From positions 62,001-126,000 of the forward strand of contig WIXG01000171.1 of NCBI GenBank assembly GCA_009869945.1: a stretch of DNA of 64,000 bases, given 5' to 3'. Below are positions 2,456 to 46,295 of this stretch, one piece after another. This stretch comes from Mesaphorura yosii (taxonomy: Eukaryota > Arthropoda > Collembola > Poduromorpha > Tullbergiidae). The translations under genes and the position numbers were made by a program. The notes under the pieces are model-generated. The model worked only from the letters and a program-made list of their open reading frames with translations. It was not told the origin of the DNA and did not search any database. Numbering within the stretch: the stretch's first letter is position 1; the number at the start of each line of letters is the position of its first letter.

Positions 2456-2500
2456 TTAATATGGCGTGAATCGATTATAGCCGCTCCGATACATTGCGGT
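2456..2500 (-). CDS. Rbfox1: Rbfox1 terminal coding exon and stop
   Basis: Follows acceptor GTGTTTCAG in phase 0 and encodes [14 protein letters not shown], then TAA at 2458-2456. The [11 protein letters not shown] ending is nearly invariant in Rbfox proteins and fixes both the frame and the stop. The exon continues into the 3' UTR. Confidence 0.95.
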   Translation of the reverse strand, partial: TAMYRSGYNRFTPY

Positions 2501-5500
2501 CTGAAACACAACGAAAGGATTTCAGATCTGAATTCATGGATCACAAGTATTCGAATAGCAGTTCGGGAAGAACTTACCCCGTAACCCGTAATCGGTCCAA
2601 TATTGTGGCCGATGTACGTTTCCGGAAAGTCTCTGCCGTAACTGCGGAAGTGGAATAAATACATCAGAACATTAATTCATACAGGTGACTTTATCCCTGT
2701 AAAGTAAAGCTGTTGGAAAAGCAGCATTGCAATAAAAACTGGCACCATTCAAAAACAGCAGAAAGAAACCCAGTAAAAATGAATTCCTCACGAAATGAAA
2801 CATTGCAACGAGTAAACGAAAAGAAACGCGAGCTATACAAAGCAGAACCCAACGAGTAGAAACCAGAAATGAATGAATCAGAAAATTAGTGATTAGTGCC
2901 AATACGGAATGAACAATACAAGAATCAAGCTAGCAATTACAGGCTAAGACGTGACAATCTCAAGGGAAAGAGAACGCACAAGTTTCACAATCCCTTCGAA
3001 GTAGGCTACCGGGGGAAGGTTCTGGTAGGTGCAGAATAAAAGCAGGGAAAACATGGCACGGCACGACGGTACGTTTTCTCTTACCCTTGAACGAAGCCAG
3101 CCACGTTTGCTGGCTGAGCAGCAGCGACACCGTAAGCTGCCCGTGCAGCTGCCGAGTAGGATGCAGCCGCAGCGTATGTGGCCTGTATCATCAAATATCA
3201 AATATGGAGGTTGTGTTTACGGCGACAGAGAACTGAATCAACTTCCTAAACTAAAAACTCATTCTAAATTCTACTGCTATGCTGCCTCCTGCATTTGTCA
3301 GTCATGTAGTAAAAGTAAAAGTCTTTGGCGGTGGTTCTTCAGATGTCGACCATAAAAACCTCAAATCTCAAAAGTTGTCAAACGCAGGAGCCAATAAACC
3401 GCCGCACTTTGGGCTTATCCGGTCGGAGCAGTCAACAGTCAGCAGTCGAGCCAATGCCATTTGCCATTATCCGTCATGTCATAAATGCTCTGGCTGTATG
3501 TAATGCTGGCACGGTCAATTCAGGCAGCGCAGCGAGCGTATGTGCATATGGAACAAAAGTTACTTTAATGGATTTGTAATTCAATATTATTATGTGCTTG
3601 CCAAGCCATTAACTGTACTGACTGAGTCAGCACGGACAGCAGCAGCAGAGAACGTGCAGAGAAAGTCGAAAGTGAATTTTCTTCGTTGGCTGACTTCCGC
3701 CGAGGCGAGTATTTACACAACACATTTGAAAAATCCGATTCAGCTTTTGCATTTGCTGTAATTTGCAGGAACATAACAAGTTCCAGTTAAATCCTAACAA
3801 GCCTGTGCTTCTGCGTTCTTTTTTTTTTAACGCGCTACCAGAAAAAGAGTCTCTAATGAATTCTGAACGTTAAACAATGAGCTTAAACGAAGCGAGCCAC
3901 GAAACAACAACGAAACAGCAACCTGTGTCTGGCTAGGGACCGACTGTTATTTGAATGCAAATTAAGCGCCAGCAGAAGTACGAAGCTGTCATTCACGGGC
4001 GGGCCACGAAGGGGCAGCCAAAGCCCAGTCAAGTCGTCATCAAATTCATTTGCGCCAACGGATGCCTATCGATCCGTGCATTTCGAGCGCTAATTAATTA
4101 ACAGTCAGAGTGAAATGCGTCTCGTCCTGCGTCATTATTTCGTGTAATCATGCGGCATGGCACGGCACAGGCACAGCACAAGAAATGGCCTCCAATCAGT
4201 CTCGGTCAACTCGACGTCTGTCTGGTCCGCCTTCCTATAAAATGCGCATTAGCGTTTATTACCTGGACACGAGGATCAGCTGCAGCCGCCGAGGCTAAGA
4301 ATGGATCGTAGTATACCCCACTGTGGAAATACAAGATAAGAGGGCAAGAGTTAGTCAGGTTTTGGGCTCCGGGCTCTGAGAAATAGTAGAAAGTTGAATT
4401 AATAATAACTAATTAGAGTAATGAAATCTAGGTTGGTGTTGTGCACTGCAATGCACTGCACTACGATGGGCATGAAACGAGAGCTACGAGCCTTTGCTTG
4501 CTTGCCTTGCCTAATCTACCTTCATTTCGCACGCAAAAACCAATAGCCTTATGCTTTTATTCCATTTGCTACTCAAGGCCTAAAGCCCTAATCATTTTTC
4601 AACATTAATTCATGCCTGTGCCCGACATGAGATCTGAGGAAAGTTTGGAGCTTACGCTCGTCTTAAGCTAATATTATTATTCCGTTCACCACATCCTTTC
4701 GCATCGGCATCGTTTAATGCGGGCGTATTAACACAATGCAAATGTTAATTAATCTCATCTTTTCGACTTAACACCGTCGTGGCAGCGCGGGCCGGGCCTG
4801 GCTGGAAAGATATGCCGGATGAAATCCCAAAGTTTCTGACAGCTTGCTTTACTAAAAGACTGAACATTATTGAAAAGTAAATATTTGGCATTCTACACAT
4901 GCCGCCACTGCCAACGGCAGTGACAACTTGCAAATTCCGGAGCTTTGACCGTGCATGTCCTTCCACACGTTAAAATGCAAGCGGAGCGGGCGGAGATCAC
5001 AGAATGGAAGAGGAGATTCTAATTACAAGTCCGTTCCGGTTCTGGAAAGCTACATTACGCTTTTACGCTGATGTAATTACTTTTGTTAAGCAATTATTTG
5101 CTCTTTGTTGCCCAATGGACTGTTGCGTTTATACGTTTCGAGGATCGAGATTAACGGAGTAGTTATAAACGGGCCATTTTATTACGGACTATTTATTTCC
5201 AGCCAGACGCCTCTCGCCGAATTCGAGCCGCCTTCGACCCTATTACTTTACTTTACACTACCTAGCCGCCTAGCCTAACTTGAGGTTTTGCGAATACGAG
5301 TACGAATCTATCAACTATTTAATGTCCGTTTTTATAGCCTCATGAAACCCATGCCATCGCCATGGAACAGAACATTCGAGCATTCGAACATGCATCACGG
5401 CACGGAAAATTACTGCTTGTAACTTTCTCTTTACATTTTACACGAAACGTTTGACTAAACGGAAAGTTCGTACACAACTCTGGGCGGTGTGCTTAGTTTT

Positions 5501-8500
5501 TAGTTGGTTCATGACTGGATAATCTGGACAGCATGTTACAAGTTTCTCTCTCAAGGCTGTTCTCGTAAAACAGCTTCTTTCACATTATTTTCACCATGAC
5601 ACGAGCATTAAAATGCTTGGTTCTCAATGACAAGTAAAATCAATCAGCGTTTAAACATAAAATTCATTCTCATTCCTGCATTACATGCAAGTACATTCCC
5701 GAAAGTACGTACGACTAGCACCAGCACTCATCAGTTAGTCACAAAACACGGTAATTAAAAGGAGTATTAATTAACTTGTTTCTTACGGAAGTCCATGCAA
5801 GCCCGCAGCAGCTGCTGCATTCAAATTCAGAGACGACTGACGAGCCAGGGCTGCCGCAGCAGCAATCGCAGCCGCAGACGAGTTATTGCCCACAAGTGGC
5901 GACGGATGTGGACTAACACAAGCAAGTCTGTGGCCTAGACCGCGCTGCAGCATGGCAGCTCCACGCAGGCCTCCAACTGCTGCTGGTTATTTGCAGGCGG
6001 GCAATGGGTAAATCATATTTTGGTTGCAAATTGGATTCCGACGCATGAGAGACACACGGCAGGCGGCAGGAGTGGAGCAAAGTGATGTTATTTTGTGTGT
6101 TTGAGGTTGTGACACAGGCAAAATCCATAAAATCCGGCATTCCGACAAGCAATCATAAGAACAAAAGAAAAAATATATCATATTATAGAACATTAGCAAT
6201 GGTAAATTGATTTTCTCAAGATTGGGTTACTTGCTTGAGCAGAGGAGCAGGCAATGCAATGCGTGTACGTAAATGTAATGTAGTCGAGTCAGGCCAGAGC
6301 ATGGTGAAAGCAAGACAGGGCAATACACATGGAGAAAGCATGACAAAAACTGCAAGACGCGTCGCCTTCTAATTGCATCATCGCATTTGCAGTCAAATTA
6401 AATCCTGACTAACCCGAAATCACATTTTTGAAATCTATCTCTTACTCCTATCAATTATACATAATTTCTTCTCTCATTTGGCTCCGAGCCTAACATTTAC
6501 TTCTTTGACTTCGACAATCTGCTGCCGCAGCAGTATGTGCTCACGCTTACCTTCTCCTTAATGGTCTAGTTGCGAGTACTAATGGACTGGCAGCTGCTGG
6601 AGGAAGCGAGGCGGCAGCAGCCGCAGCCGCTGCGGAGGCTGGCCCAATCCAAGACCATGGAAGCTGTGGTAATCTAATCCCTGCGTGTACACAGCAAGAT
6701 CGGATGCGTTCGCAATTATTGAACAACGCGAATCGAGTACGAGTAACGAGTATAATGATTAGTCGTACAACGTAAACGCTGACAACACTGCGAAATTCAA
6801 AGGTGGATTGCGGTAAAGTTAATTGCAAAGTCGACCTTTCTTTCACACACATTTAAAATTTCCTCATTTATTTTAAACGAACATTTCTCAGTTTTCTTTC
6901 CTATCGAGTAATGAAGTAGTAATGTAACGCCATGCTTCAAGCCAGCTCATGTCAATCCGTAATTTAAGCATCACAACTAAAATGATGTGTTACTACATTA
7001 CATGTACGTACGAGCATTGCATAACCCAACCACGAGACAACAAGACAGGTGGAAAATGTAAGGTTGTACTGACCATTGGCGATTCCAGGAGTAGTCACCG
7101 GTTTCTTCGTTTGGACGCGAGCCGTGGCGTTGTTTACCTGCAGGAGAACAGCAACATTCATGTTCAGCAGAGCATGGATTCATCAAAGCTCAAATTATCG
7201 TTTCCCGCACAAACGAACCGTGAAATCAAAATTCAACGTGCAATTAGCAGTTTTCAAGACTTCAGAGCTCTCACATTGCATTTTACAGAAACTGAGCTCG
7301 CTTCAATTCATCTCATCAGGCTTGGATGCCAATAAAAAATTGCCAGCGGGTTAATTAAAGACTCAAGCTAGTGAAAGGTTAATTACTGGAATTGTTAGTT
7401 TAAGCACAAACTTTGAAGTAAGGTTGTTAGTACCAAACGCAAAATTACAATTACCAAAACCATGCCAGTGTTGTAGTGTTAGTGTCATTTCTAGCAGATG
7501 ACATACGATACGAAATTCGCAATAAATTACTTGTATAAAATCCAAAATGTCGATCCATGAATTCCAACTACGAGTCAAGCCATATTCAATAGACCTCATT
7601 TGTGAAAATGTATACGGAATGCCAAAATACCATGCAGTGATGCAGTTGCAATTGTATCATAGCTTTCATCTCGTTTCGGTACACCCGTTTCGTTTCCAGC
7701 AAAACTTTGTTTTGCAAAAGTCGCAGCAAAAGCAATACCCCGAAGCTACCGTCTTAACCAGGACGCTGCAAAAATTGGCGAGATAAGTTTGGATATAAAA
7801 ATCACTACCACAAAGCAAGTCAAAGCGGAGTAGTAAACAATCGAGCGTTTGTTTACATTGCTTTGATGGGCTACAGTCTGGGCACGGGGCTCAGGCGCCA
7901 GGTTCAAAGAGATATCATAATACAATACAGACATAAGCTAAACGAGCAGAACAAGACAAGAAGAACTAGAATCGAGACTGGAGACGAAAAAAGAAGGGCC
8001 AAGAACAAGAATCAAAAACTATCGAAATCAAAGCAGTCTGGTCTGTTCGGTCGGCAGCTGGTATTTCCTATCGTGGTTTGTGGTACTCAAAAGTTGGAGT
8101 TGGAACTGAGATTGAGATCGGGATCTGGAGTTGATATGTGTAAGGGCCTTGGTCTTATTTCAACTTTCCACAGCAAAGCCACAAACGAAAAGTGAAGATC
8201 ATATGAGACCATCGTCATCGTCAAACATCATCACATCACAGTAAACACAGCGCAGGGCGCAGACAGACAGACAGAGCGAGGACAGAATCACAGAATCACA
8301 GAATTGCCCGCAGCTGATGCTGTTTGTGGCCGCTGCACGTTCTTAACCCGAAAACTTTCTCCACGTCAAACGCATCGCAAATACGTTTTATCATAACAGG
8401 AACGGTACACAAAAGTTCCGCAACTTGACAGAAAACGTGGAAGTGAGAGTGAAAACGAGCACGAGCACAAGGTAAATTCAGATGAAAGACGATCCCGGAC

Positions 8501-11500
8501 TATGACGAGGAAGGAAACAAGAACACGATCATAATGGTCCGTACACAAACTGCTGGCGGGACGAAAAAGTTACAAACAAACGCAAACGGGAAAAGTGAAG
8601 AAAAGTTGGGATGGAAAGTTATGAAAATGATTATACGTAGAAGTACGAGAAAGGAGCAGGGAAGTTAACATCTTTATCATCGATCTACGCAGTGCACAGA
8701 GCGTAATAATACACTCAAAACTTGAAGACGATAATAAACTTTATCTTAATAATAACGTACAAGTTTAGTTTACAGGTAGAATACAAAAAGAAGTCGAGTG
8801 GGGCGGTCAAATTCCATATTCCGTATCACTTACACAAAAAGCAAGTTAACGTGGAGTCACGAGTCAAGCTGGATGGCCCGGCCGGCCGACTGGCCAACAT
8901 GCAAAATGTCAAAAGGGGCACAAAACAAGGAGCGGGATTCCAAAATCTCTCAGCCATCAGCGTATCCTCGCTTAATGCTTCTTACTGTTTGTATTTGTTA
9001 TTTGTGACGTGTACTTACTCGGTGAATTCAATTTCCAGGCCCTTTCCAAAGGATCTTTGGTGTTTGTAGTTTGCGTCGTCAGCGCCCGCCGGCCGGTAAC
9101 TGAAGCTGGTGTTGGCAATACATATTTTCCACCGAGAAGCAGACAGGCTCTCATCTCACAACTACACTTTTTGAAGTCTGAACCATCAAAAATAGAGCAC
9201 ATTGTAATCAAGGGAGGCAAACGCGCAGTTTGAAGGATAAAGGCGGATCGAAATGTATAAAATTTTGAAAAATTGGGAGCAGATAAAAATTGGAGCTCTG
9301 GAAAGTCAATTCTCAACGGGACAAGTGAAAAAGTTAATACTTTTACAAGTTTTACTTCACACAGACTTAACTTTATTTTCTATCTCTATCCTACCTTTAA
9401 TATTAATGAAATTGATACGACGCGAAGTACGAAATACGAAATCATGAAATCAGAGTTCAAAGACGACGAAATCCAGGGCAGCAGGACTTTGGGAATTGGA
9501 AGTAAACATGTGACTGAGTCCCACTTTCGTTAATTAGAAAAGAAAGAGAGAACAGAGAAAGCTTTACAACTTCGTGTGTCGCGTTGGAGGTGCTTTGCTT
9601 TGCTTCGCATTAGTTACAAGTACAGGACAGTAGTGTAATAAGCAATTCGCATATGGCATTGTCATCAGACCATCATCATCATCAATCAACAATACAAATG
9701 ACAAATGTGGAGCTGTGAACCAGCAACCAGCCAGCAGAACAGCGGTAGCAGCAGCAGCCAAAAGTGCTTATCTTAAGACTATCAGTACAAAATGGTTCTC
9801 TTAAGAAGATGCACTGGCATTCCTGCATAAGTTATATAATAGTAGTAAGTAGTACAATACAAGAAAATAGCAGAAGTGAAAACTACCAAGACCAAGAAAA
9901 GACCATGACCAAAAGACCAATAACCAGAACCAGGAGAAAGAAAAGGACAGGAAAAAGGAAGGAGGATAGATCAGATCAAAATTGGTTCAGAGTTCACAAC
10001 AGTCCCAACATAATCAAAGTATAAAAATTCCGACTCCGAGATCAAGATGGCCAAACCTTCGACCGCGTACGTTTCGTGGCCCATCAACAACTGCATACTG
10101 CATCGCATCGCATGGCATTCTGGCATAACCCGCAAATTGCAAATTGGCATTAAAACAAAGACAAGACTGTGGTTGGCTGCCCTTGCAGCAGCAGCACTGC
10201 ACTGGTTAGTTAATTGGACTAGTACGTGTACAAAAAGCGGCTCGCATTAGACGCATACATGACAGCATACGCAAATAGTAAATACAAGTCAAGTCAGATG
10301 TCATCTCACAACAGACAATCAATCACTGCACTGGCATGGCGGTTAGTTGGTTAGTCAGTTTGTTAGTATTTCAGCAACCGGAAAATTGCATTGCAAATTC
10401 GTACAAGCAGAACTCGTTCGAGTGTGGCAGGCAACACGAAAGAATTCTACGGCTACTTCAACTACAAATTATACTTGATTAGATGAGGAAGAAGCGAATT
10501 GGCGAATGGCGAGTTTACAGTTTAGCTCTACGAAGTGACTGAATCATTATCATTGACGTTCCTTATCCCCGAATGCGATTAAGGTGATAGTGATTATGGC
10601 GGAGGATGGAGTAGACTTTTGATCATCGTATGAATTTCAGTAGCTAATGTTAATACGTAAGAATTTCATGCACACCTCAATTTTACGTCCTTCTACAACG
10701 GTTCCATGGAGTTTCTCGCGTGCTCGTTCAGCTTCAACATTACTGGCGAATGTTACGAAACCGAAGCCCTGGAATGCAAATGAGAACAAAACAATTAGTG
10801 TATAATAAAGTGGAGAATGGTAAATAAGGTCAGAGGGAGTTTTAATTAGTAAGGCAACAAACGCTGAAGTGCTGGTAGCTGTTTGAGTCGAAATCTAGCC
10901 CAACCAGTTTCTAATCAAAGTCATTTTACGCGCGGGGACAAATATTGTCTGTGGATCGTGGTTGTGTGCCGTGAGTTCCTGGAGCCGGAATGGCACATGG
11001 AATTGATACGAAGGAACTTGGAAATGGCACACGAGCGGGCAAAGTGCAAGCGCAAACACTCGGCTGGTGTCGACAAATAAATATTAATTAAAGGAAACAA
11101 AATTGACATAATAAAAGAGAGCGAGCAAGTAATTTCGGAGAATTTGCTGTGGTACATCTTATTCGCTTACTCAAGACTTTGGGCTGTGTAAGGAAACTAA
11201 TCAACTTATGTTAATAACACGTCTTTCTGTTGTAAGCCTTGCTCGCACTGTTTCTGGTGCGGTTTTGGGAAACTGCTACTTGCTGTGCCGTGCAATGCTT
11301 GCTTTGTAATTTGATTCCGAGGCTTAGTCGCTCGGGAAGAAAGTTTGAAAGCCTTTCTTAACGCAACAACCACGCAGCCGAGTCGAGGCGAGGATGAATT
11401 CACTTTCACCTCAAGTTTTCCTTTTCTCGCTAAAATAAACATGTGAAACTAATCGAACACGAAATGCTTGGTTGGCTGATGCCACGCGTGCCGTGAAAAG

Positions 11501-14500
11501 CAGCGAGGAGCGAAGAAGCAGCAGAATATTATGATGTAGTACTTTTGCTGCTGCCTACTTTTATATTCTCAAGAGGTTTCGCACTGTCTGCGTCGCCCGC
11601 TTTCGCATCCGAGAAAGATTACCTGGCATGTCGCATGTCTTTCCATTCCATTCGAGTGATTGATCACTTTTGCAACTTTTCTATTCTCATCTTTGCAAGT
11701 GTCAGTCTGTCGCGCATAGAAAACTTTATCATGTAATAGGCAATTGCGTTGGCTTCGGCAGTGGACTGGACTGCGATGCAAACAGTCGAGCAGGTAGAAA
11801 TTGCAAAGGAAATGAAGACACACGAACACGACGGCCGCCAGTTCCTAATTTCCTCCTATACTTTCCTAAGTTTGATTCAATTTCTTGCTGACTGCAGTGA
11901 ATTAAGATTGACGTGCTCTTACCTTTGATCCTCGTTCATTGAAAATAATCTCAACATCCAGAATCGTTCCATATGGCTGCAAATTAAAGAAGACATATTA
12001 ACCAAGGGTTCAATCAGAAAAATCAGAATCATGTCTTCACGTGGCGGAGTTCGGGGCAAAGTCCAGCTAAAGCTCAGATTTTCGCACCAGTTAATTGAGC
12101 TTCTCATTAAACTCTTTCAAAATGCGCCAACACGCCGAACGCACTCAAGCCTTTATGTTTCTCAGACGTAGAGTTAAAGCTCTGCCTGTCTGCCCGCGAA
12201 AGCCTTTGCGTATATTCTCCTCTCCATACGAGATACGATAATGATAATGCGGAGCAATTTGATTTTTTACGATTCGAGATCCTAAACACCTACCCAGGGC
12301 TGGGTTTGCTCGTTTTACATAATACGAAGTAAAGCCTTCATTAGACCCACGCCGCTCTGTCTCTCGCGTCTCGCCGACTTACCGCATTCGAAAGCCTTCT
12401 CGTACATTTACCAAAAGCCTCTTCGTCTTCGTCCTCGTGAATTTAAATACGAGGAATAAAAACCTAACGAGCTAGATTCTAATCTTGTATACATTTTATG
12501 CGGGGCTTCGACATTCATTCGGCTCAGCCCAGCTACCACATCTTTTTCTCGTTTCAGACTCTTCGTCGCTTCTTCTGCACTTCTACGCTCAACTCAAATG
12601 CGGACACGATGATACAAGAAAACGGTAGTGAGTCGAGATTATCGAAGGATTTCTTATTCAGGGCTTGAAGTACGGAAGACGGAATGACAGCTGGAGACAC
12701 GAGACAAGAAGCTCAAGCTCAAGTTTATGTTCGTACACGTACTCGTACCGTATCTCTGCTACTACAACACTTTGCATCTTCATTTTTATGTGGCTGCAGT
12801 TTTATTAAGAGATTCGAGATTCTGTATTTGCAACCAGTTTCTGCGAGCGAGAGCAAATCGACACTTCCTGGCGGCAAGCAAACCAGTACACGACTCAAGA
12901 CTCGAGTATCGAGTTGGAGTACTTTAGTTTAGTAATTTAGTAAAGAAGTGCAAGTGCCGAGCTTATATTTTAGTATTTCCTTCCGCCGTGTCGAGCGCCG
13001 GGTGAGTCGTCATCAACTCCTGGTCGACAGCTTCGATCATTCTTTCATGCACCGTACACGTACACCGCGGTTACATCGCAAAATCAGCACCACGTGAAAC
13101 GAGAAAAAACCAAAACTGAATACAGAGTCGTCCCATGGGAAATAATAAAAAAAGGAAATGGAATTTTGTGCTTTTTCTTAAAACTTGCATCGCATTTGGA
13201 GAAAAACATTCGTGGGCCGATACACGATGCTGTTGCAGGTTCCAAGAGAGAGTATTTACGTAATGAGTTTTAAGAGAAACGTAAATCTTGTGACGTTAAA
13301 TGGCAAACGGTGAAAGTCGAGCCAAGAACCGAATCAAATCAATTGACGCTTGACAGCAGCGGAGAAAGTTTAAATAACATTTCAGGCGTCGACTTTCCTC
13401 CCGCTGTTTGAGGAATTTAGTTAGTTTCATTCCCATATTTTTGGGGAAACGGGCAAAGTTTGACTGAACGTGAATTCAGAGTGACATTTTAATCAAGCCG
13501 ACTTTGAAAAAGAGCACGAAAGTGCTGCTCAAATTCTTGGTAGTACCTTTCATATGTACCCAGTCTATGAACGTCATTTTTATACTCTGTTAACGGCGTC
13601 CTCTGAGATTAATTGCAGGGACACCTGTTGTTCTTGTCTGGAGCGCACGTCATTAAAAATTAGTTTCTTCACGCACTTTAGCTTCCAGCAGGTTCTTTTC
13701 ATGCATGACTTTTAATGACCTTTTATGACATTGCTCGGAGCAGCAGCTTGGCATATTCCGTATGTGAACTGTGAACTCATTAAACGTATGAATAATTAGG
13801 CGCTCATCTGTAAGCCTGCTGCTCGCTTGACTGTTTTTGAATCTCCTTTCAAGCTCGATGTCTCCTCCGGCCCTGCCTGCCTGCCTTGCAGTCAATTTTG
13901 CTACTGCTACTAAAATTCACAATTCATTTTATGCACTGCCTCACTGCCTGCCTGCACATTAATTGTAGTGAAGTTGAAATTACTGTTGCGAAGCAGCCAA
14001 AACTAGTCGGTTGGTTAAGTGCATAGAAAAATGGTGGGCGTTGGGCGTGTCATTACGAAATCAATTTATGCTGACATAAACGACTACAGACTGCTGAATG
14101 TTTAATCAATCTAGTTTAGCCGCCTCTTGCCTATTGCAAAATGAAGAGACCAAAAGGTGAATAATGGCAAAGGCATAGTTGCACTTAACGCAGATGAAAA
14201 TCTGAGCCGGAGCTGGACTCAGCACGTGTGCCATGCCGCGGCACACTGCAGCAGTGTAAATAAACAATGGGCCCATGCATTACAAGGTTGGACTTACCCC
14301 AAACATTGTTCTAAGATCAGGATCACGGAATCGAAATGGAATATTAGACACGTGGAGTCGTTTCGGTTGGCCCTTTCCTCCGGCCGCAGCATCGATTGAG
14401 TTTTGTGTGGAAACGGATGTGCCTTGGCTCACTACAGCGTTGCCAAGATTCGAGACCATGCTCATTGATGGATCAGACTCAGGATCGGTTTGCTGCGGAA

Positions 14501-17500
14501 GAGAAAGGAGAAAGTTGTCAGGTCGAATTGAAGTCTGGCCCCTGCTTGCCTGCATGCCCCTCGGGCAAAGGCTAAATTAGGTTACGCCTGCGTTAACGGC
14601 TGAAAACGACCGCGTTCCTCGCGTAGCTTAAAATTGCATAAACTGAGGGAATAGAAGTAGAAAATTGTCAAATTGCTTGCAGACACTCAACTTTAAACCC
14701 AGCTTCAGCTTATTTGTATATAGTGCACTTACAGTTTGTTGCTCCACAGCTTGGCTTGAGGCGACGTTTACAGGAGGAAAATTCTGTCCAATCTCTTTCT
14801 CGGCCTTTATTTGTTGTGACATGGCTGCAGCCAACCCTGCTGCACTCGACAGTTCTCCGTTTTGGATCACCCCAGAAGCTCCGCTCGGGTACGCCATCGA
14901 GCCCGCCTGTACGGTTTGCTGCAAAGAAACAAGATAGACAAGATTATTACATAGTCATTGTAACCGTTGCAAAAATAATTGATATCTCGATTCGCAAGTT
15001 CACATTGGCAATATTTCAATAAATTGCACTCAGAATGGCAATGACAATGGCATACGCGCATATGGCATTTTGGCATTGGCGACTCGCGAATACGATTGAG
15101 TTTTCCATGCTTGAAAGCTATGAAACCCGGCTTCTTTACAGACTGTCTCTCTGCTTGTACATATCGACATTGTTAAATTCCCTTGAGTTTGTTCCACTCA
15201 CGTAATAAACGGATTCAAGTTCTCACTTAGCATTTCTATTAGTACAATAGGCTTGGCCGACGAGCTCGCGAGCGAGCGGAGCGAATTGAACTCGCTATTC
15301 GCCATCGATTCACTCGGGATAAATTCACATTTACACAATCTCATTTCGAATTCGAACTAACCGAGGCTGCCAGGCTGCTGGATTCGAACATTGAAATTAT
15401 GCCAAGTACTCGCTACACGGCCTCTAATGGCCCTGCCCCCGCACTTGCTCGCATTTCCAGCATTCACATTACAAAATTGACTTGGCCTGAATGTCATAAC
15501 CCTGTTACCGTACCATTGTACCAAAATTACTAGTGCCGACGAGACGACTTGAATAAATGCATATCATTTGTTATTCTACGCTATGTCGTGCGTTACTGTA
15601 GCCAATTGTAGTAATTTGATGACCTTGCCTCTGCCTGCATCGTATCGCATCCGCTCCATAAAGGACAGTCGGTTTTTCATCAGGATTGCCGATTCACATT
15701 TACTAATTCGCAGCTCGTAAAAGGGCGAATGGATACGTCGAAGGCTTTCAAGCCATGCCAGAGAAAGTGAAGTAGTGAAAATTCCCTACCGCGTTTAATG
15801 TTTTGTGCTCGCTATTCGCGAATACCGTCTGTTTTCTGTCCGGGTTTGAATGGAATCTAGAACAATGAATTTCAAAGCATTCCATTGTTCTGTATTTTGC
15901 TTTTCGCAAATTGTGGTGAAATACCAACAAACAACAAGCCTGGCGCAGTAGTCCATTGAAGACAAAAATAAACCCGCGCCACGCAGCAACACGGGCACAG
16001 ATTTCTTTGGTTTTGCAATTTGCTTTCTTCACACGAAGCCAAGCCAAGCCAACTCCAAGCCCTAGCCTAAATTATTAACAGTCCCACCTTTGTACTTTAC
16101 ACTAGCAATTTGGTTTTCTGGCTCATATTCGTAAATAATGCGCTGCTGGCCGCTGTGCCATGAGGCCGTGAAAACTCTGTCACGACACGAAGACGAAAGT
16201 TTGCTTCTTTGGCCTCTCTCGTTGTTGTTGGCGTTACCGAGTTGCCGTTCACTGTGTCATAACACGCGAAATGGGCATTTAACGTGGACTTTACGGTCAT
16301 GCAATGCAATAGTTCAGGAAATGCGGAGTATAATAAAAGTAGTTCATATTTTGACGTTCGCGTTTCCCAGAACAAGGCAGAGGAAAGCGCCAGGCGAGTG
16401 TAAGCCACTGTCAAAGTCGCACAAGCACAAGGCACAAAGTTTGAAGACAAAAACAAGGAATTCCATGCTTCGTGTTTCCGTGCTTGCTTTCACTCGATCG
16501 TCATACCGTAAATTTAGGAAATTGATTCCACGACACGATACTCACGTCAAGAAAGGAGCCGAGTGCAGAGGTGCTGAAGCGAATGCGAAATGAAACGGTG
16601 AAATCTATCGTCTCTTCCTCCCCGAGACCTGGCCTTCAAGAATCGTGTTTACACTTCCCACAATACAACTCGCTACTCGTTACCCGCTCTTTCGAGAACC
16701 GAATAACCTAATCCATTATAAGCTCCGTCGCACAAACAAGTATTGTGCATCGACTATCGTGCCTTGCGAGTATCACAGTGGCAAAATGTATTATTAAAAT
16801 TATACTTCAGTTTACGACTCCAGCCACTTTAAATATAAATCTCACTTCACTGCACTGCACTTCTGCATGCATGCAGCGCGAGCGAAGCATGTTTCTTAAC
16901 TTTAAAACGAAATGTCGTGTTTTGGGTCCAGAGTACTAAATTATATTACGAACAGTAAACTTTTCTGCCTCCACTGCTCATGGGTAATTCTGTGCTACGT
17001 ATTATTTATGAGAGACATTAATTCATTATCACATTGACAAGCCTGCCTGCCTACCCAATTTTACCTGCCTGCGCTGCTGCGCTTACTCTGAACTTTCTCC
17101 TAGCCCTCTGCTTTCTCTCAAGTATACGAATAAGTATCAGAGCAACTTATTCAGGGTTCATGCTTCACATTATGTTAAGCTGCTTGTTTACTTCGCAAAG
17201 GTCCCCTTAAACTTGCTACTTGCATGTAATGCATTCGATTGTATTACACTCCTCATGTATTTATCTTTTCGTCATTATACTTCTATTTTGAAAGCCGGCA
17301 ATTATTCTTATGCTGACTCGCTCTGCTGCTGCTGCTGCTCAAAACAAATTAATAGCACGGCATGGTATAGAAGAGTTGGGCGAAAACTTTCCCCTTTGCA
17401 ACAGAAACGAAAATACGCAAACATTGGCATTATTATTCGCATGAATAATTACCAAACGCTTGGCCATTAATTACTTTGCTGCGTACGCCCTGCTCAAGAG

Positions 17501-44500: not shown

Positions 44501-46295
44501 CTCACTCTCAATTCAAGTGTCTTTAACTGACAGTTTGGTCGAATAAGATAATACTAACCGATCCATATTGCCGCCTGGTATAGGTATTGGTACGGATACT
44601 GGTGCTCGACCCACACGCACTCAGAATGATAAGAGAACTCGTATTCGTATTGGAAATGCGACTGCTTTGAGATCTGTTGGATGTCCATTTTGGACGCTGC
44701 GCTGATTCCTGAATAAAGGCTGTTCCAAACACGAAATAATGGAATGTCACAGTCTGACTCGCACCGACTTCGGCACGAAAATCAAATCACTCAAAAATTA
44801 ACTAGAACTCCAAATACTTAAATGTGCCCATGCAAAGACAAACGGCGAAGCCGACGACACGCTCGTGGCTTGTGCGGTACTGTCAACACGCTAAAATTCT
44901 GAAGTGACCAATTTATCGAAACAATGAACTTGTGCTAAATACTAAATGAATTGCGTCCAAAAAGATTTGACGTGATGCGATGTTGCATTAACATATGGTT
45001 ATCGGACCTCCAAGCAAGCAACCAAGCTAGGATGCTAGCACGAAAGATAAGGAATAAACAAGATCAAGTTGAGACGGACACGGAGGTCCCAGATTGGGCT
45101 AGACTAGACACTTGGTAGACGGACCACCCACGAATTGCTGCTGGACCGCGACACCGCTAGATTATGGCACTTTCTGTTTCAATGCCGTTACGTTTTTGGA
45201 AAATGTGAACTCAAACACACTGAACTCTTAAAGATGAAATGCAGATTCTTCGCTTTGTCCTTGCGCGACTATAGTGCAATGCCGGTAACTTAATTCTGAA
45301 ATCAAAGACATACGTGCGCTAGTAAGAACAGATATTGTCACAGGAGGCATGAACTTCTTGGATTGATATTCTAGCTAATTGCTAATTGCTGGAATTGCTA
45401 ATTTACGAGCAAAGACAGTTGGTCGCCGTGCAATGCCACTGTTAATTGCCAATTGCCATTGACCCTCATGGTGTCATGAACTGAATTCTAGTCTAGGAGC
45501 AGCTAAAGTTAGGGAAAAAAAGAATGAGGAGGGTCTGCTTACTGTGAATGACGGTGACAAATTGTTTGTGACTGTTCCGCCGGCGGTTCCGCTACTGGCC
45601 ACGTTACTGCTGTTGATGAGACTACTTGTACTATTGCTCAGACATGAAGAACTACTCACAAGTTCTCCGATAAAACTGTCGCTGTCACCCGGAGCTACTC
45701 CAATCTCAATTTTCGGCGCTAACAAAAGGTTTGACGGTGGCGGCGATGTAGAAGTGCAGCAGGAAGTTGTTGGTATCAGTCCATTATTTCCGTTGAATAG
45801 GTCAAGATCCGCCGTGGACGTTCCTGTCCCCACACCTACGCCTACACCGTTCACAGCTGACGAACCCATGCTCGTGCCGGTGCTGCAGGACGTGGACGAT
45901 GAGTATTTCTGCCCAATCACCCCAAAACTGCTCGGACCATTCAGCAGCGCCATACTGCCGCCGTTGTACTCGTACTCGGTTTTTATTGGCAGGCAGTTGG
46001 TCATCGTCATCGCCATCGCCATTGCTGAGCTCTCATTATTATTCATCATAATGCATTCATTGCTATTGCTGTTGGGATTTGCGCCACATGAGCTATTATT
46101 CAGAAGACTATTTTGGATTTGGTGGTCGTTTGCGTTTGTGCCCACGACTGACATGCTCACTCCGACACCGACACTGCACGTCACTGACGCGGCGGCGGCA
46201 CTGCTGCCATTATTGGTACTATTGTTACCCGACGCTGCTGTTGCGGACGACCCCGTACTGCTTGTCATTGGTGCTGTTATCATTGTTGTTAGCAT
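2456..46295 (-). CDS. Rbfox1: Rbfox1 homologue (RNA-binding Fox splicing factor), whole coding model
   Basis: Nuclear (and in some isoforms cytoplasmic) RNA-binding protein that binds (U)GCAUG in introns and 3' UTRs and controls alternative splicing, stability or translation. The model is complement(join) of 2456-2500, 2578-2641, 3085-3182, 4263-4294, [unidentified exon], 5787-5912, 6551-6680, 7074-7137, 10676-10768, 11923-11976, 14298-14492, 14733-14918, 24781-24813 and 45543-46295, giving a little over 620 residues. Order: Ser/Asn-rich N-terminus (1-251), linker, single RRM (about 369-450) with RNP2 LHVSNI and RNP1 GFGFVTF, Ala-rich tail, and conserved C-terminus ending in [11 protein letters not shown]. 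All junctions are GT/AG and in phase except for one gap between 5787-5912 and 4263-4294. The family assignment rests on the RRM and C-terminus, which are unmistakable. The exon-by-exon model is inferred without transcripts. Confidence 0.93.
2578..2641 (-). CDS. Rbfox1: Rbfox1 conserved C-terminal exon (64 nt)
   Basis: Between acceptor CCACTTCCGCAG and donor GTAAGT. One base completes a glycine codon, then the exon encodes [21 protein letters not shown] in phase 0. The GHxIGPxxGYG block is the insect-type Rbfox C-terminal signature. The intron to the final exon is only 77 nt. Confidence 0.93.
2642..3084 (-). other. Rbfox1 intron
   Basis: 443-nt intron between two conserved C-terminal exons. 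Nothing else recognised; ORFs here are short and without homology. Confidence 0.85.
3085..3182 (-). CDS. Rbfox1: Rbfox1 Ala/Tyr-rich exon (98 nt)
   Basis: Bounded by TTTGATGATACAG and the donor GTAAGA; enters in phase 0 and leaves two bases. It encodes [19 protein letters not shown] and then [13 protein letters not shown]. The Ala/Tyr-rich C-terminal stretch is characteristic of Rbfox proteins, where tyrosine repeats support higher-order assembly with partner splicing factors. The frame is confirmed by the join to [10 protein letters not shown] in the next exon. Confidence 0.9.
3183..4262 (-). other. Rbfox1 intron
   Basis: 1.08-kb intron. Several short ORFs occur on both strands, but none has splice sites or composition suggesting a further exon. 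Confidence 0.65.
4263..4294 (-). CDS. Rbfox1: Rbfox1 32-nt C-terminal exon
   Basis: A small exon between acceptor CCATTCTTAG and donor GTAATA. Read with two bases completing a codon it encodes [10 protein letters not shown], and its phase-0 exit joins [10 protein letters not shown] in the next exon. An ADP segment followed by an Ala/Tyr-rich stretch is the usual order in this part of Rbfox. It needs one base carried from an upstream exon that I could not identify with certainty. Confidence 0.65.
4295..5786 (-). other. Rbfox1 intron region that should hide one or more small exons
   Basis: 1.49 kb between two exons whose phases do not match (two bases left over, one needed). An exon of length 3n+2 is required. 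UGCAUG occurs in transcript sense at 5684-5689 and 5389-5394. Two weak micro-exon candidates are discussed in the findings. Confidence 0.5.
5787..5912 (-). CDS. Rbfox1: Rbfox1 Ala-rich C-terminal exon (126 nt)
   Basis: Bounded by acceptor TTGTGTTAG and donor GTAAGA. It enters after two carried bases and encodes [16 protein letters not shown] followed by Ala-rich sequence and AGLHGLP, leaving two bases. Its length is divisible by three, so skipping would keep the frame. UGCAUG occurs inside the exon (5794-5799) and 98 nt downstream (5684-5689), so it is a likely regulated exon. The exit phase does not match the next recognised exon at 4294, so at least one small exon lies between them. Confidence 0.85.
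5913..6550 (-). other. Rbfox1 intron
   Basis: 638-nt intron between two Ala-rich exons; nothing else recognised. Confidence 0.8.
6551..6680 (-). CDS. Rbfox1: Rbfox1 Ala-rich C-terminal exon (130 nt)
   Basis: Bounded by acceptor GTGTACACGCAG and donor GTAAGC. It takes over one base from the previous exon and leaves two, so the frame reads [11 protein letters not shown], then a run of eight alanines, then a Pro/Ala/Leu stretch. An alternative acceptor 17 nt downstream (CCACAG, exon start 6663) would shift the frame into an early stop. Ala-rich C-terminal halves that mediate repression or activation are usual in Rbfox proteins. Confidence 0.85.
6681..7073 (-). other. Rbfox1 intron
   Basis: 393-nt intron directly after the RRM. 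One GCAUG in transcript sense near 6936-6932, about 140 nt downstream of the donor; nothing else seen. Confidence 0.85.
7074..7137 (-). CDS. Rbfox1: Rbfox1 exon ending the RRM
   Basis: A 64-nt exon from CTGTTCTCCTGCAG to a GTCAGT donor, entering in phase 0 and leaving one base over. It encodes [18 protein letters not shown], the beta4 strand of the RRM, followed by the start of the C-terminal region. [12 protein letters not shown] matches insect Rbfox more closely than the vertebrate VMTNK form. Together with the preceding exons it completes one RRM of normal length. Confidence 0.95.
7138..10675 (-). other. Rbfox1 intron
   Basis: 3.5-kb intron between the two RRM exons GRKIE and VNNAT. It contains a UGCAUG overlapping the 5' splice-site region (10672-10667) and short purine-rich stretches. 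No gene recognised. Confidence 0.9.
10676..10768 (-). CDS. Rbfox1: Rbfox1 93-nt RRM exon with RNP1
   Basis: Thirty-one codons, phase 0 at both ends, bounded by TTTGCATTCCAG and the donor GTGTGC. It starts [16 protein letters not shown] (RNP1, with the aromatic residues that stack on RNA) and ends [10 protein letters not shown]. The exon length equals that of the vertebrate 93-nt RRM exon, whose skipping yields a dominant-negative Fox protein. Its donor is immediately followed by UGCAUG, the protein's own target. Skipping would keep the reading frame but remove the core of the RRM. Confidence 0.96.
10769..11922 (-). other. Rbfox1 intron
   Basis: 1.15-kb intron between the 54-nt and 93-nt RRM exons. 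No additional feature recognised. Confidence 0.9.
11923..11976 (-). CDS. Rbfox1: Rbfox1 54-nt RRM exon
   Basis: Eighteen codons, phase 0 at both ends, between TTAATTTGCAG and GTAAGA. It encodes [18 protein letters not shown], the beta2 region of the [17 protein letters not shown] is essentially invariant in Rbfox proteins. The 54-nt length is typical of this exon in animals. The first residues are PYG where most relatives have QFG. Confidence 0.96.
11977..14297 (-). other. Rbfox1 intron with several UGCAUG sites
   Basis: 2.3-kb intron inside the RRM coding region. Transcript-sense UGCAUG occurs at 14279-14274, 13705-13700 and 13052-13047. No gene recognised. Confidence 0.9.
14298..14492 (-). 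CDS. Rbfox1: Rbfox1 exon opening the RRM (65 codons)
   Basis: A 195-nt phase-0 exon between CTCTTCCGCAG and GTAAGT. The first 44 codons are a Ser/Thr-rich linker. The exon then encodes [18 protein letters not shown] and ends LRTMFG, the beta1-alpha1 part of the Rbfox RRM. RNP2 is LHVSNI, and the IPFRF phenylalanines that contact the UGCAUG bases in the known Fox-1 RRM structure are present. Usual family sequence has RQMFG where this has RTMFG. A UGCAUG lies 19-24 nt into the downstream intron (see findings). Confidence 0.95.
14733..14918 (-). CDS. Rbfox1: Rbfox1 linker exon (62 codons) before the RRM
   Basis: Acceptor TTCTTTGCAG and donor GTAAGT bound a 186-nt phase-0 exon beginning [13 protein letters not shown] and ending AVEQQT. 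It holds an Ala-rich patch and the motif IKAE, a second SUMO-consensus match. The next exon begins QTDPESD, in frame. Only 240 nt of intron separates it from the exon that opens the RRM. Homologous linkers in Rbfox proteins are poorly conserved, so identification rests on phase, splice sites and position. Confidence 0.85.
14919..24780 (-). other. Large Rbfox1 intron
   Basis: 9.9-kb intron. It contains a 204-codon plus-strand ORF (18770-19384) with no recognisable motif and composition unlike a normal protein, an inverted repeat at 18188-18225, and several short tandem words. No gene is supported. Confidence 0.8.
24781..24879 (-). CDS. Rbfox1: Rbfox1 33-nt exon with alternative upstream start
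   Basis: The core exon 24781-24813 is preceded by acceptor CCCTTCCCAG and followed by donor GTAAGT. It encodes [11 protein letters not shown] in phase 0 on both sides and links the long N-terminus to [11 protein letters not shown] at 14918. Upstream of the acceptor the frame stays open to ATG 24879-24877, with an in-frame TGA 21 nt before it. A transcript starting here, or spliced at a further TGTGTGCAG acceptor near 24902, would therefore give a short isoform beginning [15 protein letters not shown]. This is the usual Rbfox arrangement of alternative promoters with different N-termini. The core exon is well supported by phase and splice sites. The alternative start is an inference. Confidence 0.7.
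32094..33347 (-). CDS. Possible small nested gene, two exons
   Basis: Exon A (33039-33347) opens with ATG and encodes 103 codons with ordinary protein composition, including [19 protein letters not shown] and a Lys/Glu/Trp-rich end, up to a phase-0 GTAATG donor. Exon B (32094-32345) follows acceptor CCATTGCAG, begins [15 protein letters not shown] in phase 0 and reaches a stop after 83 codons. I recognise no family. The plus strand is also open across exon A (33081-33329), so coding direction is uncertain. It lies in the largest Rbfox1 intron, on the same strand. Confidence 0.25.
40154..40173. repeat. Perfect 9-bp inverted repeat
   Basis: CGTCTAGCG and CGCTAGACG separated by TT, forming a near-complete 20-bp palindrome in the large intron. 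Confidence 0.85.
43730..43749. repeat. (CAGG)n microsatellite
   Basis: Tandem CAGG units with one CAGA variant, next to a CGCG-rich segment. Confidence 0.8.
44154..44170. repeat. (AGTCA)n short tandem repeat
   Basis: Three copies of a 5-bp unit AGTCA. Similar short words recur across the introns. Confidence 0.75.
44559..44708 (-). CDS. Candidate Rbfox1 cassette exon, 50 codons
   Basis: A 150-nt segment flanked by a good acceptor (CCTTTATTCAG) and a GTTAGT donor. It is open in phase 0, the phase needed between the long first exon and the 33-nt exon. The product is Ser/Thr/Asn/Arg-rich and ends in QYGS, similar in character to the N-terminal domain. It would act as an in-frame cassette that lengthens the disordered N-terminus. 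No recognisable motif supports it, and it could instead be a chance open segment or an untranslated alternative exon. Confidence 0.4.
44709..45542 (-). other. Rbfox1 intron between first coding exon and candidate cassette exon
   Basis: 834 nt, AT-rich, with a tandem AATTGCT-type repeat near 45380-45410. Nothing else recognised. Confidence 0.5.

Follow-up and report, generated by a model that had tools for sequence, protein, structure and literature searches.

A candidate Rbfox-binding hexamer overlaps the 5' splice site of the RNP1 exon in an Rbfox gene of Mesaphorura yosii

The window analysed here is a 64-kb stretch of DNA from Mesaphorura yosii whose minus strand carries a gene with an RNA recognition motif (RRM). 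The RRM region of this gene has human RBFOX1 as its best PDB match (4zka_A, E 2.2e-29), also matches C. elegans ASD-1 (2mgz_A, E 9.3e-20), and gave a Pfam RRM_1 match. Judged by this homology, the host gene is an Rbfox orthologue. We modelled eleven exons, E1 to E11, across 2456..14918 of the minus strand using homology and splice consensus only, with no RNA, and the 5' end of the gene lies outside the model. E1 (14918-14733) is followed by the 195-nt E2 (14298..14492), the 3' part of which encodes the first part of the RRM and which has a strong donor, GTAAGT. E3 (11923..11976; 54 nt, encoding 18 residues) and E5 (7074..7137; 64 nt, encoding 21 residues and starting with GTAAAC) lie on either side of E4 (10676..10768), and would be the upstream and downstream partners were E4 to be skipped. 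The remainder of the model comprises E6 (6551-6680; 130 nt, doubtful or alternative), E7 (5982-5787), E8 (4320-4263), E9 (3182-3085), E10 (2641-2578) and E11, which runs from 2500 to a TAA stop at 2458-2456.

The modelled protein ends in ...GYNRFTPY followed by the stop, a terminus that we take to resemble those of other Rbfox proteins. Reaching this C-terminus requires that E5 be joined directly to E7, because E6 as drawn breaks the downstream frame: the candidate exon is alanine-rich and open in frame, but it shifts the frame of E7. E6 is either a frame-changing cassette or an exon whose boundary has been misplaced.

When the genome (93.0 Mb, 1127 contigs) was searched with the protein sequence of the RRM region and 16 candidates were scored, five matches were obtained. 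Three of these are the Rbfox exons of the window, and the other two, at 36-37% identity, fall in contig C301, which carries other RRMs; no second Rbfox locus was found by this search. Similarly, no second copy or haplotig of the E4 region was identified in the organism's own genome. Among viruses (IMG/VR), none of 15 pattern matches was a relative by tblastn, while one of 162 pattern matches amongst prokaryotic contigs (GTDB) was a relative, namely a bacterial RRM with 44% identity; the plasmid collection contained no match. Elsewhere in the window, an open frame on the minus strand (45474-46295, 273 aa) is rich in S, T, N and G and includes the motifs IKTE and KIE. Its first 252 residues were compared with Pfam, and no family matched even with E values of up to 1 allowed.

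An earlier note on this DNA had drawn attention to E4, describing it as a 93-nt RRM exon that carries RNP1, and we found that all of its coordinates hold (10768-10676, minus strand; phase 0 at both ends). The 31 codons of the exon translate as GFGFVTF...RKIE, encode RNP1 and the following RRM helix, and align with the RRM of RBFOX1; the acceptor of the exon reads ...TTTGCATTCCAG. E4 is symmetric, and joining E3 to E5 would preserve the reading frame, placing RGSK onto VNNATAR. The junction proposed for such a transcript, 11923 to 7137, is also correct, 11923 being the last base of E3 and 7137 the first base of E5. With E4 included, the Pfam RRM match scores 63.8 bits over model positions 2-69 of 70, and with E4 removed it scores 23.5 bits over positions 2-37 of 70, which still clears the Pfam cut-off of 20.7 bits. 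The skipped form would keep only about half of the RRM model.

The E4 donor (10667..10675, minus strand) reads GAG|GTGTGCATG across the exon-intron boundary, a site also written GAG|GTGTGCATGAAATTC. As the earlier note had claimed, a perfect TGCATG hexamer, which is a candidate Rbfox site, occupies +4 to +9 of this donor (10672-10667, with +1 at 10675), and its overlap with the U1 recognition region was borne out, the two sharing positions +4, +5 and +6. A Fox motif is present at the donor of E4 and absent from its acceptor: the donor site is the only GCATG on the minus strand within 10268-11268, and near the acceptor no TGCATG was found, the best sequence there being the one-mismatch TGCATT. 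A literature search combining GTGTGCATG with the word 'splice' returned no Rbfox title or abstract opening among the matches listed.

We estimated donor strength as the duplex energy with the 5' end of U1, a crude measure. Across the ten modelled donors of the Rbfox gene, to which this ranking applies, energies span -10.3 to -4.6 kcal/mol, and the E4 donor ranks ninth at -5.3 kcal/mol, with that of E7 alone being weaker. By the standard of these ten donors the E4 site is weak, and it is the sole exception to the presence of A at +4, which is found in the other nine. The acceptor of E5, CAG|GTAAAC (7130-7140, minus strand), resembles a recursive splice site; the U1 energy of its GTAAAC start is -8.3 in the genomic context and -6.9 once E5 is joined to E4, and either value is better than that of the E4 donor.

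RNA structure was considered as a reason for the weak donor and rejected, as three folds around the donor were no better than shuffles (z 0.07, 0.68 and 0.69). In the best fold of two of the three stretches, an exonic GCACGC pairs with GUGUGC of the donor over 6 bp (10670-10723, minus strand; z 0.07 to 0.69). Predicted pairing of the hexamer varies with the flank chosen, and we therefore make no claim about its accessibility. We also scanned for weaker Fox-like 5-mers, which are common and from which no inference is drawn. Within 10268-11268 on the minus strand, these comprise GCACG inside E4 (10723), GTGTG over the E4 donor (10675) and at 11032, GCTTG at 11051 and 10408, GTTTG at 11057 and 10862, and GTATG at 10270. 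GCACG is a motif in use by C. elegans FOX-1 (PMC7787662).

Nine TGCATG sites lie within the span of the gene. For three of the nine, the first base is no more than 25 nt from one of the ten donors; the binomial P for this is 0.005, an optimistic value because the 25-nt window was set after looking. None of the nine lies within 25 nt of an acceptor. A possible second Rbfox site follows the E2 donor at +19 to +24 (14274-14279, minus strand), and so sits on the downstream side, which PMC8789036 gives as the usual activating side for Rbfox. Another TGCATG lies inside E7 (5794-5799, minus strand), where it starts 13 nt before the donor TCC|GTAAGA, the weakest by U1 energy.

Over the window as a whole TGCATG occurs at an ordinary frequency, with 63 sites against 56.8 +/- 8.1 expected; the minus strand has more of them, 39, which leaves 24 for the plus strand. 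We estimated the role of chance from two densities: 9 sites in 12.46 kb for the gene, and 39 sites in 64 kb for the minus strand of the window. The E4 donor was a single donor picked beforehand from published precedent, and the chance of a hexamer touching its positions -3 to +6 is 0.010 at gene density or 0.0085 at window density; when a hexamer at the donor or at the acceptor of E4 is counted, the corresponding values are 0.026 and 0.022. Of 205 AGGT sites on both strands of the window, one has TGCATG at +4 to +9, and this is the E4 donor. Scaling the window and genome counts suggests that approximately 1.5e-4 of AGGT sites would carry the hexamer in this register. Genome-wide enrichment of the donor string was ruled out, as the 11-mer AGGTGTGCATG occurs 44 times (22 + 22) and its reversed-pattern control 43 times (16 + 27). 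The string is therefore ordinary, and it is the placement that stands out.

The idea that Rbfox controls its own RRM exon, and the extension of this idea to an invertebrate, are already known; given the precedent in mammals and Drosophila, the addition made here is one more species and the exact register of the motif. The abstract of Damianov and Black 2010 reportedly describes Fox elements that flank the fly exon and that, in Fox-1 and Fox-2, overlap the splice sites, and the motifs at the exon of Drosophila Rbfox1/A2bp1 are likewise said to be 'flanking'. The vertebrate precedent invoked by the earlier note, in which Rbfox autoregulates by skipping of a 93-nt exon, is backed by PMC4984447, PMC11380049 and PMC3126832. 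In mammals, the Rbfox1/2 pre-mRNAs contain a conserved 93-nt exon that the two proteins themselves repress via adjacent intronic motifs, giving rise to dominant-negative forms (PMC4984447); of the 73 RRM residues of RBFOX2, 31 come from exon 6, such that loss of this exon removes beta-3 with RNP1 and alpha-2 (PMC11380049); and the Drosophila Fox homolog has an equivalent alternatively spliced exon (PMC3126832, 2011, citing Damianov and Black 2010). A comparison of rat cortex with the suprachiasmatic nucleus found more of the form without the 93 nt in cortex, a difference that its authors link to RBFOX3-enhanced skipping (PMC5577181). The term 'dominant negative' applies only partially even where tested, because a study of mouse liver judged the amount of active RBFOX2 to be weightier than the dominant-negative form (PMC9771820), and an RRM-lacking form is described as blocking activation and not repression (PMC5778076). 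A study of heart disease saw no change in the level of the dominant-negative form (PMC4971515).

E4 is similar to the RRM exon of mammalian RBFOX1/2/3 (exon 6 of RBFOX2 and exon 8 of Rbfox3) in being a 93-nt, 31-codon, in-frame exon that encodes RNP1 and alpha-2, and the locus resembles mammalian Fox-delta-RRM autoregulation in that a Fox motif adjoins the exon and skipping is in frame. When set beside the mammalian exon, E4 has a single UGCAUG, located at +4 of the donor, with none at the acceptor. Unlike in mammals, only one Rbfox locus was found here among the 16 candidates scored, which leaves no paralogue cross-regulation. The equivalent exon of Drosophila Rbfox1/A2bp1 is an alternative exon in an invertebrate (PMC3126832). 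The A2 exon of MYH9 offers a parallel for Rbfox at a weak donor, but in PMC13158602 (2026) the proposed motif is GUGACU and not UGCAUG, the outcome is inclusion, and the gene is a target and not Rbfox itself. At intron VI of xol-1 in C. elegans, FOX-1 is an invertebrate Fox protein that represses normal splicing via GCAUG/GCACG; this system differs in its use of multiple intronic sites and in its outcome, which is intron retention or an alternative 3' site (PMC7787662).

We propose that E4 and its donor hexamer may constitute a negative autoregulatory cassette of the Rbfox RRM exon that combines competition at the donor, repression and a dominant-negative product, a reading that we regard as evenly poised between right and wrong. 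When abundant, Rbfox would bind UGCAUG at +4 to +9 of its own E4 donor, and its footprint would take +4, +5 and +6 from pairing with U1 snRNA, resulting in mutual exclusion at an already weak donor. E4 would then be skipped and E3 would join E5 in frame, and the resulting protein, stable but without the RNP1 half of the RRM, would oppose the full-length form. Positions +4 to +6 would be required by Rbfox and U1 alike, which makes mutual exclusion the simplest interpretation, and the overlap would fit direct competition at the donor; Rbfox binding, exclusion of U1, skipping and dominant-negative action are each predicted steps. We favour this cassette on account of the exon, its frame, the motif, the Rbfox identity of the gene, the weak donor, the overlap chance of about 0.01, and the mammalian and fly precedent. 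Against it stand the occurrence of one UGCAUG only, with none near the acceptor; the donor of E7, which is weaker still and has a TGCATG near but not across it; the 11-mer without genome-wide enrichment; and the skipped RRM, which passes the Pfam cut-off. Any Rbfox effect at the E4 donor could have either sign, given a report of activation by Rbfox at a weak donor.

It is also conceivable that drift gave the donor its GTGTGC, which is weak yet still functional, with the TGCATG being accidental and E4 constitutive. The hexamer is frequent, its 39 minus-strand copies in 64 kb not exceeding expectation, AGGTGTGCATG stands at control frequency genome-wide, and with ten modelled donors the chance of overlap at some donor would be about 0.1. 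However, the precedent in mammals and flies had marked out E4 in advance, the chance of overlap with its donor is about 0.01, and a weak donor would otherwise be costly in an essential exon; we consider an accident of this kind rather unlikely. That the feedback is instead positive, with Rbfox on or beside the weak donor aiding U1 and promoting inclusion of its own RRM exon, strikes us as improbable. Rbfox sites downstream of a donor do usually activate (PMC8789036 and PMC11380049), in MYH9 RbFox reportedly compensates for a weak 5' splice site (PMC13158602), and the E4 donor is weak, but the mammalian effect on the same exon is repression (PMC3126832, PMC4984447 and PMC11380049), and simultaneous binding would be sterically doubtful with the hexamer partly in the U1-paired stretch.

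A block at the donor could alternatively lead to intron retention or the use of cryptic donors, and hence to an early stop and less protein, not to a dominant negative. Reading through the E4 donor adds 12 more codons before a stop, and C. elegans FOX-1 gives retention of xol-1 intron VI or an alternative 3' site (PMC7787662). The 3.5-kb intron 3' of E4 and the symmetry of the exon would nevertheless suit skipping, and we give this outcome a low probability. CELF proteins prefer GU-rich RNA, and the donor GGUGUGCAUG is GU-rich over +1 to +5. Another factor, for example CELF/Bruno acting on the GUGUG of the donor, might control E4, with UGCAUG being secondary; CELF1 overexpression moves RBFOX2 towards a dominant-negative isoform (PMC11380049), and Drosophila Rbfox1 and Bruno1 regulate one another (PMC8742874). 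The GU stretch is short, however, and a perfect UGCAUG is present, and we regard control by such a factor as very improbable.

Returning to negative autoregulation at the E4 donor, the hexamer would appear to be a well-placed motif that agrees with a switch already described. A more elaborate version, to which we attach little likelihood, is a two-site rheostat in which the UGCAUG at +19 of the E2 donor would promote the first RRM exon and that at the E4 donor would shut the second, and placement in the U1 footprint would represent the switch pared down to one site in an animal with a single Rbfox, as opposed to the multi-paralogue form of mammals. If the E4 cassette is used, the self-limiting switch of Rbfox also works in an invertebrate whose genome is compact and yielded one Rbfox gene. 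Editing its single donor hexamer could then probe homeostasis with no redundant paralogues to mask the effect, and the locus would be well suited to deciding between repression and activation by Rbfox bound in the U1 footprint.
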